NCBI RefSeq assembly: GCF_024347615.1
Contig: NZ_AP025509.1
Location: 62,001-126,000 of the forward strand
DNA: 64,000 nucleotides
Direction of reading: 5' to 3'
Source: Vibrio splendidus
GTDB taxonomy: Bacteria; Pseudomonadota; Gammaproteobacteria; Enterobacterales; Vibrionaceae
Shown: piece after piece, positions 56,110 to 64,000 of the stretch
How positions within the stretch are numbered: the first letter of the stretch is position 1
How the letters are laid out: each line of letters opens with the position of its first letter
Translations under genes and position numbers: made by a program
The notes under the pieces: generated by a model
What the model saw: the letters and a program-made list of their open reading frames with translations, nothing else
Told to the model about the DNA's origin: nothing
Database searches by the model: none

Positions 56110-56928
56110 TTATGGACGATCACCCTCAAGCAATCGCTTTTCGATATCTGCAATCACTCCAGGTAGGTCTGCAATGGTATCGATCAGGTAGTGCGGGTTT
56201 GATTTGTTTAGCTTAACGCTTGCTTTTTCACGTGCAGCTGTAAGTGTTGTCTCGTCTGCATCTAAATATTCTTGGTATGTTAAGCCTGCTTCGTTACCCG
56301 ATAATACAAGTCCAACTGTCCACATGCCTGCGTTGTGACCTTCATCGATACCAGGTGCTGCATCATCTACTTTCACACACGCTGAAACGCTGGTTACGGC
56401 AAGGTCGATTACGTTTTTAAGTGCCATAAATGGAGCAGGGCGACCGCCTTGAGGTAGGTCATCGGTTGCTACGATGTTGTCAGGGTGGTAACCGTAATCT
56501 GCAGCCGCAGGGATTAGCACATCCATCACTTCACGTGGGTAACCTGAACAAGACCCGATCTTCACGTTCTTCTCTTTTAAGTTATTGACCACTTCTATCG
56601 CGTTTAAAATTGGAGCTGCGTGATCGGCTACTTTCGCTTTTTGAAGAGGCATGAATGCCGCGTAGATCGCGTCAACATCTTCACTTGTCATGGAGCGTCC
56701 GAATTGAGCCTTCCAACGAGCGTCAACGGCTGGAATTCGACCAACTGCTTGGATGTGGTCCCATTTGCCGATCCCCATAGGTTCACGCGCTTCTGCTAAG
56801 TCGATATCAAAGTCGAAACCTTGTCTGAATGCTTCAACAAAGATGCTGGTTGGAGCAAACGATCCAAAATCAACGATAGTGCCAGCCCAGTCAAAGATAA
56901 CCGCTTGGATAGGTGATGTCGTGTTCAT
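56110..56928 (-). CDS. phnX: Phosphonoacetaldehyde hydrolase (phosphonatase)
   Basis: 272 residues of the HAD superfamily. Nucleophile Asp13 is in [17 protein letters not shown]; Lys55 in [10 protein letters not shown] is the Schiff-base lysine of the cap domain, as in characterised phosphonatases. [10 protein letters not shown] carries the HAD Ser motif, and [12 protein letters not shown] the acidic pair. It cleaves phosphonoacetaldehyde to acetaldehyde and phosphate in the cytoplasm, the C-P-breaking step of the cluster. It follows pbfA after 127 bp on the same strand. Confidence 0.97.
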
Positions 56929-57055
56929 AATAGTGTCCTATTGTGTGTCACTTCCCGCCTGTTTAAAACTCAAAGGTTCAATCGGGAGGTTACGGGTTGT
57001 TTTAGGTTATTGGTTGCTTGAAATTATTGCTTCAAGGCACGCTTTAAAAGGAGAT

Positions 57056-58477
57056 TCAAAGGTATTCAAAGTCATTGCAGACTTTTGCTATCGCTTTTTC
57101 GAATACAGTCAGAGCGATTTCTAGTTCGCTGCGGCTGATGATCAATGGTGGGCTTAACTGAATCACGTTACCTTGTGACACCTTAAAGCTCAGGCCATCG
57201 TTCAGGCATTGGTAAAGTACTGCTTCTGCTTCGTCGAAAGCTCTGGTCTTAGTGATATGGTCGGTGACCAATTCCACGCCCCAAAGCAGGCCGATGCCGC
57301 GAACGTCACCAATAACTGGGTATTTCTCTTTCATTTGAAGCAGCTGCTCACGCATAAATGCGCTGTCGGCTTGTACTTTTTCAAGTAGGTTTTCTTGCTC
57401 AATCACTTCCATGGTGGCGAGTGCTGCCGCGCAACCAAGTGGGCTTTTTTCATGGGTGTAGTGACCAAGGGATACTTGCGCTGCCGTGTTGTATTTGTCT
57501 TTAGTGATCATGGCTGCGATTGGAACTAAGCCGCCGCCAAAACCTTTACCGATACAAAGAATGTCAGGTTCGATATCAAAAGCTTGGTGAGTGAACCATT
57601 CGCCACTGCGACCCATACCGTTTGGAATGTCGTCGATGATCAACATGACGTTATGCTTATCACAAATCTCACGGATGCGCTTCCAGTAAGCTTTGCTTGG
57701 TACTTGCACGTCTGTGTTACGAACTGCTTCTGCAATGAAGGCACCAATGCCACCTTCTTTTTCAATCACATATTCTAGGTAATCGGCGTAGTGCACATCG
57801 CATGCAGCCTCACTTTCACCGCCTGCGTTTTGCCCACGAAGCGGGAAAGCACCACGGTAGGAAACCGCTGGTGGAATACGTTCTACGCCAGCCATTAACG
57901 GCCCCATACCCTCGCGAAAACAAGCTTCACCACCCACTGAAATTGCATCCAGTGACGCGCCGTGGAATGAATCCCATAGCGACACTACTTTGAAGTTGTT
58001 GGTGACATGTCGAGCCAGCTTGAGCGCCATACCAATAACTGAAGTACCACCGGGAGCAAACAACACGCGATTCAAATCACCACCGCAGATCTGTGTGAGT
58101 TTCTCAGCACACTGAACGGCCGTCTCATTGGTGAAGCGACGTGGTGAAAATGGCAACGACGCCATTTGCTGAGTCACTTTATTAATAATATGTGGGTGGC
58201 CATAACCAAGCTGATGAACATTGTTACCGTGAAAGTCCATGTACTTTTTGCCCGTCGCATCTTGAATGTAGATGCCTTCGGCTGCTTCAAGTGTGTCTAG
58301 GCAAGGCGTTGACATGGCTTGATGAAGAAACACGTCAGAGTCACGCTTTAACATCGCTTGAGTCGCATCATCGTTTAGTGATTCGTTCCATTTTTCGCGT
58401 GCTGGCGTGGTATTCACATCGCCTTCGCTTCGAAAGTGCGTCGCCTTTAGAATCGGCTCTTGATTGGTCGTCGTCAT
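57056..58477 (-). CDS. pbfA: PbfA-type (R)-1-hydroxy-2-aminoethylphosphonate ammonia-lyase
   Basis: 473 residues of the class III aminotransferase fold, PLP lysine Lys311 in LCIGKGFGGG. It sits directly between phnX and phnW and shares a 1-bp overlap with phnW. The class III DE-x-Q-x-GFGRTG motif is altered here to DDIPNGMGRSG (282-292), and GGTSVIGMALKLARH (144-158) is the PLP phosphate region. From memory, PbfA described in V. splendidus eliminates ammonia from (R)-1-hydroxy-2-aminoethylphosphonate to give phosphonoacetaldehyde, so PhnX can then act. A phosphonate-specific role follows from context; the exact reaction follows from the family. Confidence 0.88.
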   Translation of the reverse strand: MTTTNQEPILKATHFRSEGDVNTTPAREKWNESLNDDATQAMLKRDSDVFLHQAMSTPCLDTLEAAEGIYIQDATGKKYMDFHGNNVHQLGYGHPHIINKVTQQMASLPFSPRRFTNETAVQCAEKLTQICGGDLNRVLFAPGGTSVIGMALKLARHVTNNFKVVSLWDSFHGASLDAISVGGEACFREGMGPLMAGVERIPPAVSYRGAFPLRGQNAGGESEAACDVHYADYLEYVIEKEGGIGAFIAEAVRNTDVQVPSKAYWKRIREICDKHNVMLIIDDIPNGMGRSGEWFTHQAFDIEPDILCIGKGFGGGLVPIAAMITKDKYNTAAQVSLGHYTHEKSPLGCAAALATMEVIEQENLLEKVQADSAFMREQLLQMKEKYPVIGDVRGIGLLWGVELVTDHITKTRAFDEAEAVLYQCLNDGLSFKVSQGNVIQLSPPLIISRSELEIALTVFEKAIAKVCNDFEYL

Positions 58478-59580
58478 TATTTGATGTCCCAGTACATAGC
58501 GTTTTTCACCGCGCCAATGAGAGCTTCAATGTCTGACGGGTAAACTTCACCGATGTTACCGATTCGGAAGCAGTCTGCGTTTGAAACCTTGCCCGGATAA
58601 ATCACAAATCCTTGCTCTTTCAAACGGTCATAGAATTCTTTGAATTGGTAATCGCTATGAGTTGGAGAATAGAAAGAAGTAATGATAGGTGAATGAAGGT
58701 CATCATTAAGCAGTGGTTCAAAGCCAAGGGAACGCATACCTGCAACCAATGTGGTTTGGTTGGTTTGGTAGCGACTATGACGAGCTTCGATGCCGCCTTC
58801 TTGTTCCAATTCAAGTAGAGCTTGGTAGAAAGCGCGCACTGTATGAGTCGGAGAGGTGAAGCGCCATTTACCATGGTTGCTTTCCATGCAGTGCCACTGG
58901 TCAAACAGGTCAAGGCTTAATGAGCGAGCTTGGCCTTTGCACTTCTCTAGTTCTGACTGCTTTGCAATAACAAAGCCGAACCCAGGTACACCTTGAATAC
59001 ACTTGTTTGCCGAGCTGATCATGTAATCGATACCTAAGTCAGCAATATCCATAGGAATTCCACCAAAGCTCGACATCGCATCTAGAATGACGGTTTTGTT
59101 GTGCTGTTTTGCCAATTTGGCAATTTCTTCAATTGGATTCAGCATACCCGTAGTGGTTTCACAGTGGACAATCGCTACGTGAGTAATGTCTGAATCCATG
59201 GCCAATGCCGTTTCCATTTCGTTCAAGTCAGGTTGTGATGTTTCACCTGGGGAAACGACATGGCATGGAATGTTTAAGTATTCTGCGATTTGAGCAATCC
59301 GAGCCCCATACGCACCGTTGTCAACAACAAGAAGCTTACCGCTTTTAGAAATAACGCTACCGATTGTTGCTTCAACTGAAGCGGTGCCGCTACCTTGCAT
59401 TAGTACGCTCGTGTAACCCGTTTGCTTAGTCGCCGAAGTCACTAGCTTGCTACGAATCACTTCAACAACGTCTTTGTTGTATTCATCATCCCAAGTACAC
59501 CAATCTTTTAGCATCGCTTGGCGAACGGTTTCAGAAGTAGATAGAGGACCCGGTGTCAGTAGTAGGTATTCGTTTCTCAT
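58477..59580 (-). CDS. phnW: 2-Aminoethylphosphonate:pyruvate aminotransferase
   Basis: 367 residues, fold-type I PLP enzyme. [18 protein letters not shown] opens the protein, [15 protein letters not shown] holds the phosphate-binding region, and the PLP lysine is in [18 protein letters not shown] (about Lys193). It transfers the amino group of 2-aminoethylphosphonate to pyruvate, giving alanine and phosphonoacetaldehyde. The ATG at 59580 is preferred over a TTG two codons upstream. It is the first gene of the minus-strand operon phnW-pbfA-phnX, which starts 25 bp from a palindromic operator. Confidence 0.97.
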
Positions 59581-59604
59581 GTTCAATTCTCGTTATCTGT
59601 GTTT

Positions 59605-59616
59605 TGGACTATACCA
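59605..59616. promoter_or_regulatory. Palindromic operator, TGGACTATACCA
   Basis: One of three related 12-bp palindromes in the phosphonate cluster, two bases off TGGTATATACCA. It lies 25 bp upstream of the phnW start. Confidence 0.6.
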
Positions 59617-59792
59617 ATATTTACGGTTACTTTAACAACCAATTTAAACGGTCGTAAATAGCCCAAACGTTATTTTCACAAAAGCTTCATATTCAAATTT
59701 GTCACTTGTGTTGAGAAAATTTCCGATCTTTAAATTGCCATTTTTTGTTCATTTAACCGTCATAAAAGTCGATTAGGTTAATACTCATCATC

Positions 59793-59804
59793 TGGTACAT
59801 ACCA
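59793..59804. promoter_or_regulatory. Palindromic operator, TGGTACATACCA
   Basis: Second copy, one base off a perfect palindrome, in the middle of the divergent phnW/phnS region. The form GT-N-TA-N-AC fits HutC-type GntR regulators, to which known phosphonate regulators belong. Confidence 0.7.
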
Positions 59805-59963
59805 ACGTAAAGGCGTGTACTAGTCACCTAAATGAATTTATGGGTATAGGTGCCTCTTGATGAGGCTTCTAACTTAAGAAACGTTAAACCTAGGCAGCTT
59901 TAAACCTCGATAACTTTTAATTTTGGCAACTTCTCACTTTAGAGTTGAGCCTGACTGGAGAAA

Positions 59964-60974
59964 ATGATGAAAAACCGTTTTATGAAAGGATCACTTGCAG
60001 CGTTAGTAACTCTACTCGCTGGTAATGCTTATGCAGCACAGGAAGTGACGGTTTACACCGCTTTTGAAACTGACATTTTAGCGAAATACAAGAACGCATT
60101 TGAAAGTGAAAACCCAGACATCAACATCAGGTGGGTACGTGATTCAACTGGGATCATGACGGCAAAATTATTGGCCGAAAAAAACAACCCGCGCGCAGAG
60201 GTAGTTTGGGGACTTGCTGGTTCTTCAATGGCACTGCTTAAAGAAGAGGGCATCCTGAAACCTTATACGCCTCAAGGTGTAGAAGCATTACGCGCTAACC
60301 TTAACGACCCGCAATCTACTCAAGCTTGGTATGGCAACGACGCATTTTTCAATGCGGTTTGTTTCAACGAAGTAGTTGCTAAGCAATTGAAACTACCTGC
60401 ACCTAAATCTTGGGATGATCTAACAAAGCCTATCTACAAAGGACACATTGCAATGCCAAACCCAGCGTCTTCTGGTACCGGCTACATGCAGGTTTCGGCT
60501 TGGTTACAAAACATGGGTGAAGACCAAGGTTGGAACTACATGCAGAAGCTAGACCAAAATATTGCTCACTACACGCACTCTGGTTCTAAGCCATGTGTTC
60601 AAGCGGGCATGGGTGAAGTCGCTATTGGTATTTCTATGGCGAGCCGTGGCGCTAAGCTGAAAACTCAAGGCGCTCCACTTTCAGTTATTACGCCTGAAGG
60701 CATCGGATGGGAATCTGAAGCGGTAGGCCTTGTTAAGCCTTCTGATGCAGCACAACGTGTTATCGATTGGTCTATTTCTAAAGCGGCAAACGAGCTTTAC
60801 ATCGAAATGTACCCAGTTGTTGGTCACCAAGATGTGACAGGCAAAGCAGAGAACTTCCCTAATGTAGAAAAGAACATGGCAAAAATGGACTTCGCTCGCA
60901 TGGGCAGCGAACGTGCCGACGTTCTTAAAACATGGTCTGAGAAGTTTGATGCTAAATCAGAGCCAAAATCTTAA
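59964..60974 (+). CDS. phnS: Periplasmic binding protein for 2-aminoethylphosphonate
   Basis: 336 residues: signal peptide 1-25 (ending NAYA), then an iron(III)/AEP-type type II binding fold with VTVYTAFETDILAKYKNAFE, WYGNDAFFNAVCFNE and MPNPASSGTGYMQVSAWLQ. It would capture 2-aminoethylphosphonate for the PhnTU(V) ABC transporter downstream. The ATG pair at 59964/59967 leaves a choice of start; GGAG favours the second slightly. It faces the phnW operon; a UUCG terminator separates it from the next gene. Confidence 0.9.
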   Translation: MMKNRFMKGSLAALVTLLAGNAYAAQEVTVYTAFETDILAKYKNAFESENPDINIRWVRDSTGIMTAKLLAEKNNPRAEVVWGLAGSSMALLKEEGILKPYTPQGVEALRANLNDPQSTQAWYGNDAFFNAVCFNEVVAKQLKLPAPKSWDDLTKPIYKGHIAMPNPASSGTGYMQVSAWLQNMGEDQGWNYMQKLDQNIAHYTHSGSKPCVQAGMGEVAIGISMASRGAKLKTQGAPLSVITPEGIGWESEAVGLVKPSDAAQRVIDWSISKAANELYIEMYPVVGHQDVTGKAENFPNVEKNMAKMDFARMGSERADVLKTWSEKFDAKSEPKS

Positions 60975-61038
60975 TCTGACGACCTATTCAGTTACGTAAC
61001 TATTTAACTATTTAGCTCATTAGAAGTTAGAGATCAGT

Positions 61039-61066
61039 AAAGGAAGGCTTCGGTCTTCCTTTTTTA
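61039..61066 (+). terminator. UUCG-loop terminator after phnS
   Basis: AAAGGAAGGC and GTCTTCCTTT pair (one G-U) around a TTCG tetraloop and run into T's. It probably reduces, not abolishes, transcription of the next gene. Confidence 0.9.
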
Positions 61067-61101
61067 GTTTACGCCTTTAGGTTTTAAGTAAGGTACAACA
61101 A

Positions 61102-62523
61102 ATGACAAAGCACTACTCATATTGGTTCAAGCAAGCGTTAGAACAAGAGTTTGGCAACATCAATGAGGGGCTAGATTCGGCGAAGTCGCTCCAAAAAGAC
61201 GTCAACTGTGATATCGCCATTGTTGGCGGTGGCTATACGGGTTTATGGACGGCGATTTTAATCAAACAACAGCAACCCGAAAAGCATGTTGTCGTGATTG
61301 AAAAAGGTCTATGTGGTAGCGGTGCTTCTGGTGCGAACGGCGGTTGCATGCTGACGTGGTCAACTAAGTATCCGACGCTGAAAAAGCTCTACGGAAAAGA
61401 ACAAGCGAAATGGTTGGTTAAGGAATCGGAAAAGGTTATATACGAGATTGAAGCCTTCTGTAACGAACACAAGATTGACGCGCATCTATATCGAAGCGGT
61501 ACTTACTACACGGCGACCAATGAAGCGCAAAAGGGTGGAATGGAGCCTGTTGTTAATGAGCTGGTTAAGCAGGGTATCAATAGCTGGAAGAAGTGCGACA
61601 ATTCTTTGGCTGATAAAGCGGGATCTGATCGCCACATTGAGGGTTACTACTCAGAAGCTGCGGGTAGTGTGCAGCCAGCGTTATTGGCGAGAGGTTTGCG
61701 CCGAGTCGCGCTCGAACTGGGTGTTGAAATTCACGAAAACACAGAGATGACATCACTCGACTATGGCTCCCCAGCTCGAATTCAAACCAAAGGCGGTTCC
61801 GTATTTGCGGATAAAGTGATTTTGGCACTCAATGCGTGGATGCTCGATCACTTTAAAGAGTTCAAACGCAGCATTGTGGTTGTCTCTTCAGATATGGTAA
61901 TGACCAAGCCTATTCCTGAAAAGCTCAAGCAATTTGGCCCAGAGAAAGGGGCGGCGGTGGTGGATTCGCGTATCTTTGTCCACTACTACCGAGATACCCA
62001 GGACGGACGACTCATGTTGGGCAAAGGCGGCAATAAATTCTCGTTCGCCAATCAAGTTGAAAGCATGTTTAACCAAACGACCAACTACCTGCCGATTCTC
62101 AATCAATCGTTCCAAAAACTGTTCCCTAAATTGGAACAAAGTGAATTCGATTACAACTGGTCTGGCGGCTCAGATCGTTCGGTCACCGGATTGCCATTTT
62201 TCGGTAATCTAAAAGGCCAAAGCAACATCTATTATGGGCTTGGTTATTCAGGCAATGGCGTTGCTCAAACCCGTATGGGCGGAAAAATTTTGTCTTCAAT
62301 GGTACTCGATATCGACAATGCTTGGACACGAAGTGGTTTAACTAAAGGCCCGTTAGGACACTTCCCGCCAGAGCCATTTCGTTGGGTAGGTGCGATGATG
62401 GTGCGTGATGCGGTGCGAAGAAAAGAGAACGCGGAAGATTCTGGTAACACGCCATTGTGGCTAGATAAACAGTTATCCAAACTCGCAGGTGCGGCGGGCA
62501 AAGCCGACAAGGTTGAATCATAG
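61102..62523 (+). CDS. FAD-dependent oxidoreductase of the phosphonate cluster
   Basis: 473 residues of the D-amino-acid-oxidase (DAO) superfamily: FAD-binding CDIAIVGGGYTGLWTAILI with GGGYTG at 42-47, then GANGGCMLTW near 75 and NWSGGSDRSVTGLPFFG near 354. The C-terminal 70 residues are family-specific. From memory, FAD enzymes found in AEP clusters (PbfC/PbfD group) oxidise N-methyl-2-aminoethylphosphonate, some also AEP itself, directly to phosphonoacetaldehyde. Context inside phnW/pbfA/phnX/phnST makes that role likely; I cannot tell which named enzyme it is. The AAGGTACAACAA ribosome-binding site supports the start. Confidence 0.85.
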   Translation: MTKHYSYWFKQALEQEFGNINEGLDSAKSLQKDVNCDIAIVGGGYTGLWTAILIKQQQPEKHVVVIEKGLCGSGASGANGGCMLTWSTKYPTLKKLYGKEQAKWLVKESEKVIYEIEAFCNEHKIDAHLYRSGTYYTATNEAQKGGMEPVVNELVKQGINSWKKCDNSLADKAGSDRHIEGYYSEAAGSVQPALLARGLRRVALELGVEIHENTEMTSLDYGSPARIQTKGGSVFADKVILALNAWMLDHFKEFKRSIVVVSSDMVMTKPIPEKLKQFGPEKGAAVVDSRIFVHYYRDTQDGRLMLGKGGNKFSFANQVESMFNQTTNYLPILNQSFQKLFPKLEQSEFDYNWSGGSDRSVTGLPFFGNLKGQSNIYYGLGYSGNGVAQTRMGGKILSSMVLDIDNAWTRSGLTKGPLGHFPPEPFRWVGAMMVRDAVRRKENAEDSGNTPLWLDKQLSKLAGAAGKADKVES

Positions 62524-62664
62524 ATTAATCTAACGTTTAAATTAGAAGTTTACATTTAGGCTCTCAGTGATTTATGGGCAAGTCACTGAGGGCTTTCAAC
62601 GTTGAACAAACTTTTAATGCTGAACAAATAGCAATCTTTAATGCTTATTATATCTGCAATATAA

Positions 62665-62693
62665 CTGTCATTTAGCTACTATAAATTTGTCAC
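62665..62693 (+). promoter_or_regulatory. Pho-box-like repeats upstream of phnT (weak)
   Basis: CTGTCAT, CTACTAT and TTGTCAC follow each other at exact 11-bp spacing, the phasing of PhoB sites, with AT-rich 4-bp linkers. The middle unit is poor. It lies about 30-55 bp before the HutC-like operator. Confidence 0.35.
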
Positions 62694-62720
62694 TCAACTG
62701 CAATATTCTCAGTTTAAATT

Positions 62721-62732
62721 TGGTATATACCA
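62721..62732. promoter_or_regulatory. Palindromic operator, TGGTATATACCA
   Basis: A perfect 12-bp palindrome, 18 bp before the phnT start. It matches the GT-N-TA-N-AC core of HutC-type GntR operators. Two near-copies lie upstream of phnW and phnS. Confidence 0.75.
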
Positions 62733-62750
62733 TATAGAGAGTGCTGTAGT

Positions 62751-63860
62751 ATGAGCAACCAAACTTATTTGAATATTGAAAACGTTGTAAAGCAATTTGG
62801 CCAATTTACAGCGTTAAAAGACATCTCCCTATCGATAGATAAAGGCGAGTTCGTCTGCTTCCTTGGCCCATCTGGCTGTGGAAAAACCACCTTATTACGT
62901 GCGATTGCAGGTCTAGACTTGCCAACTTCAGGTTCTATTGAGCAGAACGGTAATGATACGACCTTCTTGCCACCAGAAAAGCGCGACTTTGGCATCGTGT
63001 TCCAATCTTACGCTTTGTTTCCAAATCTCACTGTAGAAGAAAACATTGCGATTGGTCTGAAAAATCAAGGCATGTCGACCAAAGAAGCCCTTGAGACGGT
63101 TGAGTCTTGGTTAGAGACCATCGGCTTACCAACGTCTGGCCAAAAGTACCCAAATCAGCTATCTGGTGGACAACAGCAGCGTGTTGCTCTGGCTCGCGCA
63201 TTAGCGTTGTCTCCAGGCTTGTTGCTACTCGATGAACCGCTGTCTGCGTTGGATGCGAAGGTAAGAACACATCTGCGTGACGAGATCTGCCAACTGCAAC
63301 GCAAGTTGGGTATCACCACTATCATGGTGACGCACGACCAAGATGAAGCCTTAACGATGGCAGACCGAATTGTGGTGATGAACCATGGTGTCATTGAGCA
63401 AGTAGGTGCCCCACAAGAGATCTACCAAAAACCCGTCAGTCGTTTTGTGGCTGAGTTTGTTGGCAGCATGAACTTCATTCAAGCTTCTGTCGCAGCGCAA
63501 GGCAAGATACGTATTGCTGAGTCGATGTTACCGTTGCCGGGTTTAGATAACCTCACGCCAAAACTTGGTGATGTTTTCGATATTGCCGTTCGTCCAGAGC
63601 AAATCCAGTTTGTGGATCGTTTTAGTGAGTCATTACCCGTGAGAATCGTATCAAGCGAATTCTTAGGGGCGTTTTATCGTGTTGAGTGTCAATTGCAACA
63701 TGACTCCACGGCGAAAGAGATCATCGTTGATGTATCAGTCAAAGAGTTCAATCGATTGAAGCTGCGTCGCAGTGATATTCGTTATGTGGCGTTTGACCAA
63801 GAAGGCCTGAGAGCTTACCCATCGAAAAGCCTGCAAGTGATGAAAGACGAGGCGGCGTAA
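62751..63860 (+). CDS. phnT: ABC transporter ATP-binding protein for 2-aminoethylphosphonate
   Basis: 369 residues: Walker A GPSGCGKTT at 39-47, Q-loop VFQSYALFPNLTVEENI, signature LSGGQQQRVALARA, Walker B LLLLDEPLSALD, His-loop IMVTHDQDEAL, and a TOBE domain at the end. It energises uptake with the PhnS binding protein and the permease that follows. It starts 227 bp after the FAD oxidoreductase gene, has its own promoter region with the palindromic operator, and is followed after 6 bp by a permease gene. Confidence 0.93.
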   Translation: MSNQTYLNIENVVKQFGQFTALKDISLSIDKGEFVCFLGPSGCGKTTLLRAIAGLDLPTSGSIEQNGNDTTFLPPEKRDFGIVFQSYALFPNLTVEENIAIGLKNQGMSTKEALETVESWLETIGLPTSGQKYPNQLSGGQQQRVALARALALSPGLLLLDEPLSALDAKVRTHLRDEICQLQRKLGITTIMVTHDQDEALTMADRIVVMNHGVIEQVGAPQEIYQKPVSRFVAEFVGSMNFIQASVAAQGKIRIAESMLPLPGLDNLTPKLGDVFDIAVRPEQIQFVDRFSESLPVRIVSSEFLGAFYRVECQLQHDSTAKEIIVDVSVKEFNRLKLRRSDIRYVAFDQEGLRAYPSKSLQVMKDEAA

Positions 63861-63866
63861 ATAATC

Positions 63867-64000
63867 ATGGAATCGACTCAAATGATGCAATCTAAGCTGC
63901 TAATTCAACGACGAGTACAGCCTTTTCTTGCTCGATTAAGTAAAGACAACGTAATCCTATTTGGGCTGTTGGCCTTTTTGTCTGTGTTCATGACGCTGTT
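63867..64000 (+). CDS. ABC transporter permease, start of gene (runs out of window)
   Basis: The ATG lies 6 bp after the phnT stop. The 44 residues visible begin MESTQMMQSKLL, then a basic stretch, then a hydrophobic helix (VILFGLLAFLSVFMTL), as in PhnU/PhnV-type permeases. Only the N-terminus is visible, so the permease identity rests on context. Confidence 0.7.
   Translation, partial: MESTQMMQSKLLIQRRVQPFLARLSKDNVILFGLLAFLSVFMTL

Follow-up and report, generated by a model that had tools for sequence, protein, structure and literature searches.

Several enzymes that lead natural aminophosphonates into phosphonoacetaldehyde have already been described. In Vibrio splendidus, the activities of PbfA and PhnX have been published: PbfA is a lyase specific for (R)-1-hydroxy-aminoethylphosphonate (R-HAEP) and inactive on the S form, and PhnW and PhnX alone process R-HAEP inefficiently (PMC8154272). 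The flavin adenine dinucleotide (FAD)-dependent oxidoreductases of phosphonate clusters have been split into the groups PbfB, PbfC and PbfD, with a median between-group distance of 0.81 and with PbfD1 corresponding to family TIGR03364; extracts containing the PbfB of V. vulnificus, combined with PhnX, released phosphate from N-methyl-aminoethylphosphonate (N-methyl-AEP) and none from aminoethylphosphonate (AEP) itself (PMC10590968). The same pathway scheme is drawn in a review (PMC10574752), and clusters that carry pbfA, pbfC or pbfD, and pbfF have been described in Mesorhizobium (PMC12366243). Here we analyse the phosphonate locus at the end of a 64,000-nucleotide stretch of V. splendidus DNA, which we call the window (contig NZ_AP025509.1; G000:C2:62001-126000 in our numbering, from a genome of two contigs and 5.88 Mb), and compare it with related loci, which are denoted by L numbers, and genomes, denoted by G numbers.

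Gene content and predicted pathway

We read the window as carrying a hydrolytic aminophosphonate utilisation locus under the control of the regulator PhnR and its operator, a single reading to which we assign a probability of about 0.88. A preliminary description of the window had placed a phosphonate cluster at 56110..64000, and every gene named there was found in place and over its family cut-off. Genes were called with NCBIfam profiles at curated cut-offs, with which the Pfam domains agree; scores are given in bits, followed by the cut-off:

56110..56928, minus strand: phnX, phosphonoacetaldehyde hydrolase (TIGR01422, 317.8; 220)
57056..58477, minus strand: pbfA (NF049939, 733.4; 525)
58477..59586, minus strand: phnW, AEP--pyruvate transaminase (TIGR02326, 645.9; 400.8)
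59964..60974, plus strand: phnS, AEP ATP-binding cassette (ABC) transporter substrate-binding protein, PhnS2 (TIGR03261, 497; 392.75)
61102..62523, plus strand: pbfB, FAD-dependent aminophosphonate oxidoreductase (TIGR03329, 748.1; 632.8)
62751..63860, plus strand: phnT, AEP ABC transporter ATP-binding protein, PhnT2 (TIGR03265, 523.2; 457.7)
63867..65591 in window numbering (L009:8867-10591), plus strand: phnU, permease, PhnU2 (TIGR03262, 827.9; 593.25)
beyond the window, after phnU: phnR, GntR regulator (TIGR03337, 369; 296.75)
beyond the window, after phnR: EamA-type protein (TIGR03340, 313.3; 288.15)

All six proteins encoded wholly within the window exceed their curated family cut-offs, with phnX, pbfA and phnW on the minus strand and phnS, pbfB and phnT on the plus strand. 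Aligned over 471 columns, the FAD protein shares 64% identity with the V. vulnificus FAD oxidoreductase P0087, and it scores 26.4 bits against TIGR03364, far below the cut-off of 285.1. Because of these two results, we place it by similarity in the PbfB group and not in PbfD. An assignment to PbfC would be hard to reconcile with the same identity, which, given the published distance of 0.81, fits only membership in one group with the V. vulnificus protein. Its predicted structure has a confident fold to about residue 463 (mean predicted local distance difference test, pLDDT, 90.2; predicted template modelling score, pTM, 0.91).

In the proposed pathway, PhnSTU would import AEP-type compounds, as expected from its families. 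PhnW would transaminate AEP with pyruvate, PbfA would eliminate ammonia from R-HAEP, and PbfB would oxidatively deaminate N-methyl-AEP with release of methylamine, each reaction giving phosphonoacetaldehyde, which PhnX would split into acetaldehyde and phosphate. The lyase activity of the window strain's PbfA is predicted from V. splendidus PbfA, and the oxidation of N-methyl-AEP to phosphonoacetaldehyde from the V. vulnificus extracts. Since the window's FAD protein is PbfB-like and PbfB extracts are inactive on AEP, the locus likely serves three substrates with one entry each and a shared intermediate, with no FAD route for AEP. The earlier suggestion that PhnW, PbfA and the FAD protein all feed PhnX therefore stands as far as three enzymes expected to yield phosphonoacetaldehyde are concerned, and is not supported where it gives AEP a route through the FAD protein. 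We rejected the FAD protein as an AEP oxidase, and we consider it improbable that it oxidises plain AEP in addition, giving AEP two entries by transaminase and oxidase: the protein sits in the PbfB group, PbfB extracts freed no phosphate from AEP in a coupled assay (PMC10590968), and such an activity would be redundant given PhnW.

Both phnW and phnX are over cut-off in one cluster, as expected for the PhnWX hydrolytic pathway. Profile searches of the genome found no PhnJ (carbon-phosphorus lyase), and no PhnA (phosphonoacetate hydrolase), phosphoenolpyruvate mutase or TIGR03364 protein over cut-off, the best match to the mutase model reaching 122.3 bits against a cut-off of 319.55. Because the genome has no phosphoenolpyruvate mutase over cut-off, we consider the locus degradative and not biosynthetic. 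The nine genes identified in the locus do not include the S-HAEP racemase PbfF, for which the rest of the genome was not searched, so the set of side entries cannot be called complete, as the preliminary description had it.

The expectation that a PhnS/PhnT uptake system adjoins the enzymes was borne out, in that AEP-type ABC transporter families are over cut-off; matches to the alternative PhnS/PhnT/PhnU/PhnV models (TIGR03227, TIGR03258, TIGR03226 and TIGR03255) are far under theirs. The window end cuts this system, leaving inside only the first 134 bases of phnU (63867..64000). The genes phnW and pbfA overlap by one base, the first base of pbfA being the last of phnW, and phnW starts with TTG at 59586 or ATG at 59580. 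The EamA protein belongs to a family named ‘phosphonate utilization associated putative membrane protein’, and the next gene encodes a solute-binding protein of the TRAP type (NF037995, 111.8 bits; cut-off 50). PhnX residues 6-266 align with the phosphonoacetaldehyde hydrolase structure 2iof, and further solved relatives exist; those of PhnW include 9kk8 and 1m32. The best solved-structure matches of PbfA (212 bits) and PbfB (53.2 bits) are both other enzymes. The window PbfA is 94-95% identical to the PbfA of V. splendidus loci L014, L016 and L017. On this protein (57056-58477), the PbfA model scores lower than an older one named ‘aspartate aminotransferase family protein’ (NF004755; 733.4 versus 889.3 bits), which may be the source of that name on the L037 copy.

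Candidate PhnR operator and promoter elements

The divergent region between phnW and phnS contains two conserved palindromes, and a third precedes phnT:

59604..59617, no strand: operator-like palindrome 1, phnW side, conserved 14-bp palindrome
59792..59805, no strand: operator-like palindrome 2, phnS side, conserved 14-bp palindrome
62720..62733, no strand: operator-like palindrome 3, phnT side, found by the scoring matrix and not a training site

We surveyed 45 loci for this element at a threshold of 15 bits, dropping genes with too little upstream DNA, so that denominators differ. The 60 bases upstream of phnW contain the element in 29 of 30 loci (in the exception, L038, it lies 107 bases upstream), as do the 200 bases upstream of phnS in 30 of 30 and the 60 bases upstream of phnT in 27 of 27. 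At the same threshold, no site was found within 200 bases before phnX (0/29), pbfA (0/28), phnU (0/29), phnR (0/31) or the EamA gene (0/26). With 14 bits as the threshold, 29 core loci gave 86 matches, a count that includes the training sites, versus 1-6 in five shuffles.

Taken together, these data suggest that the 14-bp palindrome is probably the PhnR operator, PhnR being the likely binder because phnR is part of the locus. Through it, PhnR would control three promoters, those of phnW-pbfA-phnX, phnS-pbfB and phnT-phnU-phnR, most simply as a repressor released by substrate. Alternatively, the palindrome could be bound by a regulator other than PhnR. A related 12-base pattern occurs at 17 distinct places in the window genome, 14 of which fall outside the locus, a point in favour of this alternative. 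Against this stand the other three, which sit at the three presumed promoters of a locus that bears phnR, and the persistence of the pattern in relatives; moreover, most of the 14 may be chance matches, because a reversed control pattern gives 10. We therefore regard a different regulator as unlikely. No report of a Vibrio PhnR operator was found in the literature searched, which mostly did not extend to subscription papers.

Two further elements hint at an additional layer of control by phosphate supply, both built of half-sites spaced 11 bp apart:

59724..59763, plus strand: Pho-box-like repeats upstream of phnS (score 19 of 28; suggestive only)
62665..62704, plus strand: Pho-box-like repeats upstream of phnT (score 21 of 28; suggestive only)

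The repeats before phnT tie for the best of all placements on both strands of 74 kb (21 of 28). Among relatives, the median best score is 20 for phnT (26 loci) and 19 for phnS (29 loci), against 12-14 for other genes, the phnS search having used 330 bases, for which the chance level is somewhat higher. In 3000 random 200-base stretches the 95th percentile was 16, the 99th 19 and the maximum 21. These repeats are suggestive only; if they are functional, PhoB may add control by phosphate starvation at phnS and phnT. A scan for sigma-70 promoters was uninformative (3 found versus a mean of 12.8 in shuffles).

Distribution in Vibrio and the position of pbfB

How common is the full gene set? In a survey of 148 sampled Vibrio genomes, with co-occurrence counted only from matches over family cut-offs, the FAD family was found in 52 genomes, PbfA in 75, PhnW in 79 and PhnX in 78. 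The genes phnW and phnX lie within 5 kb of each other in 77 of the 148, and in 73 the distance between pbfA and phnW is likewise no more than 5 kb. PhnW, PhnX and PbfA are all present in 51 of the 52 genomes with the FAD gene, and in 45 of these 52 the FAD gene lies on one contig within 20 kb of phnW, phnX and pbfA. In five of the seven exceptions the FAD gene is on another contig (G007, G008, G054, G099 and G109); in G044 the locus is present and PbfA is not over cut-off; and in G115 the genes are 1.86 Mb apart by contig numbering, perhaps spanning the start of a circular chromosome. Because of these counts we conclude that the full set is common in Vibrio, and we reject the proposal that it is unusual to find it complete at a single locus; clusters with several entries have also been tabulated for Mesorhizobium (PMC12366243). 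Two AEP clusters were seen on records labelled as plasmids, L037 (V. parahaemolyticus NZ_CP141289.1) and L038 (Plesiomonas NZ_CP062197.1), the former being a linear 68-kb record that may be a mislabelled piece of chromosome.

Gene order is conserved as well. The comparison of cluster order across relatives, which had been proposed as a check, showed phnX-pbfA-phnW and phnS-pbfB in the same order and on the same strands in 15 of 16 Vibrionales loci, far beyond chance; the remaining one, V. lentus L011, breaks off within pbfA at the end of its contig. One locus (L026, a 28% match) was excluded from every locus count.

The position of pbfB varies. In an unrooted tree of 45 PbfB proteins, several rows of which are near-copies, a branch with support of 99/98 separates the 19 whose genes directly follow phnS from the other 26, of which 25 are encoded elsewhere and one by a divergent gene. 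For three of these 19 (L019, L023 and L054), the sequence examined behind pbfB contained no phnT. The window PbfB shares a group, supported at 97/87, with the PbfB proteins of V. crassostreae 9ZC13 and Vibrio sp. 10N.261.45.E2; we take this group to be the Splendidus clade, as the preliminary description supposed. The simplest account of the tree would be one move of pbfB to the place behind phnS.

In the window, two hairpins flank pbfB:

61039..61062, plus strand: intrinsic-terminator-like hairpin between phnS and pbfB, with a TTCG loop and a T-run (fold -13.9 kcal/mol, z -2.29)
62558..62595, plus strand: strong hairpin after pbfB, a possible terminator with a short T-run (fold -22.9 kcal/mol, z -6.49, within 62550-62600)

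The terminator scan as a whole found 14 against a mean of 8.9 (standard deviation 3.0), so single hairpins rest on the fold result. The window pbfB lacks its own operator. Since the hairpin behind phnS is only 39 bases away from the start of pbfB, transcription of the gene probably begins at the phnS promoter and continues through this terminator-like structure.

It could be argued instead that pbfB is a passenger behind phnS that serves another amine pathway. It does not lie directly behind phnS in 26 of the 45 loci, and an operator within 400 bases upstream was found for only one of 45 pbfB genes, that of L035, where pbfB is divergent from phnW. Moreover, a gene with a GcvA-like LysR start lies near pbfB in 13 of the 22 outlying loci examined; for four of these LysR genes tested with profiles, GcvA was the best match, below its cut-off. 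These observations are outweighed by the co-occurrence and linkage described above (51 and 45 of the 52 genomes), by the published activity on N-methyl-AEP (PMC10590968), and by four outlying copies that may be co-read with the core genes: among the 25 genes placed elsewhere, pbfB is 121-149 bases behind phnR in L027, L051 and L052, and 44 bases behind phnU in L038, so that these copies may be transcribed from an operator-bearing promoter. Three more are 194-296 bases behind the EamA gene, and the remainder are at least 566 bases from a same-strand core gene or have none in the stretch. On this evidence a passenger role is highly improbable, and we retain pbfB as the probable N-methyl-AEP entry of the locus. 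Several of the loci L028-L053 also have a partly conserved, repeat-rich stretch, noticed by eye, upstream of the outlying pbfB, possibly the site of the GcvA-like LysR regulator; our search pattern for it matched only 4 loci.

The gap between phnS and phnT has other occupants besides pbfB, which fills it in 15 loci of the window clade and in L036. A small GNAT-like protein is encoded there in L029:11193-11603, L030:6625-7092 and L037:8006-8416, below the family cut-off and annotated as GNAT in L037. The occupant in L027:7077-8438 (genome G082) is a second PbfA-like class-III pyridoxal phosphate (PLP)-dependent enzyme, 37% identical to PbfA; this protein and one at G065:C48:61370-62689 are second PbfA-like enzymes over the NF049939 cut-off of 525, with scores of 608.8 and 598.6. 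In L034 the gap holds an MFS-like gene on the opposite strand, and in L028, L031, L032, L033, L035 and L038 it is only 167-335 bases long. In addition, a HAD-IB hydrolase gene lies between pbfB and phnT in L011:4881-5531, L015:11494-12147, L018:11517-12170, L021:11469-12140 and L025:11494-12147. Four of these products are over the TIGR01490 cut-off and that of L011 is just under it; they are nearest to histidinol-phosphatase models, far below those cut-offs. The window has no open frame of 50 residues at this position. A tentative idea, which we hold to be possible and rather doubtful, is that the gap is a docking place for optional entry enzymes, where, in the lineage of the window, pbfB arrived once and thereby came to be driven by the operator-bearing phnS promoter, and where other occupants may act on undescribed aminophosphonates.

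Strength of the reading and comparison with described clusters

Several points weigh against reading the window as an aminophosphonate utilisation locus controlled by PhnR. With respect to the enzymes, the activities in the window strain are inferred from assayed relatives. The V. vulnificus PbfB resisted purification and was assayed in extracts (PMC10590968), and it may be an oxidase or a dehydrogenase. Our anchor P0087 is tied to that published protein, presumably accession WP_049798008, by name and similarity, and the separation of PbfB from PbfC rests on the published group distance. With respect to regulation, PhnR binding is proposed from the position and conservation of the palindrome only, and the scoring matrix was built from 54 phnW- and phnS-side sites, which makes the phnT site the sole held-out test. 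The Pho-box consensus is that of Escherichia coli. Three pst-type loci of the same genome, intended as positive controls, scored 16, 18 and 17 over 3.8 kb, leaving the score unvalidated, and a score of 19 is also reached within the coding sequence of pbfB. Finally, many of the compared loci are closely related, so the counts are not independent.

The observation behind the preliminary description is confirmed, and its first interpretation is partly supported. The cluster is real and mostly ordinary, its pathway and side entries having been described before. What it adds is modest, namely the palindromes and the placement of pbfB, neither of which we found in the literature searched. Compact routes for three natural aminophosphonates are common among marine vibrios. 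Together, palindromes and Pho-box-like repeats predict expression that needs substrate and perhaps also phosphate shortage, and the occupants of the phnS-phnT gap form a short candidate list for aminophosphonates without known breakdown.

The window locus matches the transporter and regulator families TIGR03261, TIGR03265, TIGR03262 and TIGR03337, all four over cut-off, and differs from the other PhnS/PhnT/PhnU/PhnV type in having one 574-residue permease instead of two. It shares with the described V. splendidus phnWX-pbfA cluster the joint presence of phnW, phnX and pbfA and a PbfA lyase feeding PhnX; the FAD gene and regulation, both of which the window locus has, lie outside the parts of that study compared here (PMC8154272). 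Its FAD protein falls in the same group as the V. vulnificus PbfB, at 64% identity and in an aminophosphonate cluster context. That comparison with the published work is one of sequence and not of gene order, and in the window pbfB stands directly behind phnS (PMC10590968). The alphaproteobacterial clusters likewise gather several side entries to phosphonoacetaldehyde in one locus, but, as far as the parts compared describe them, phnWYA mostly takes the place of phnX in them, their FAD proteins belong to other groups, and they include the S-HAEP racemase (PMC12366243).

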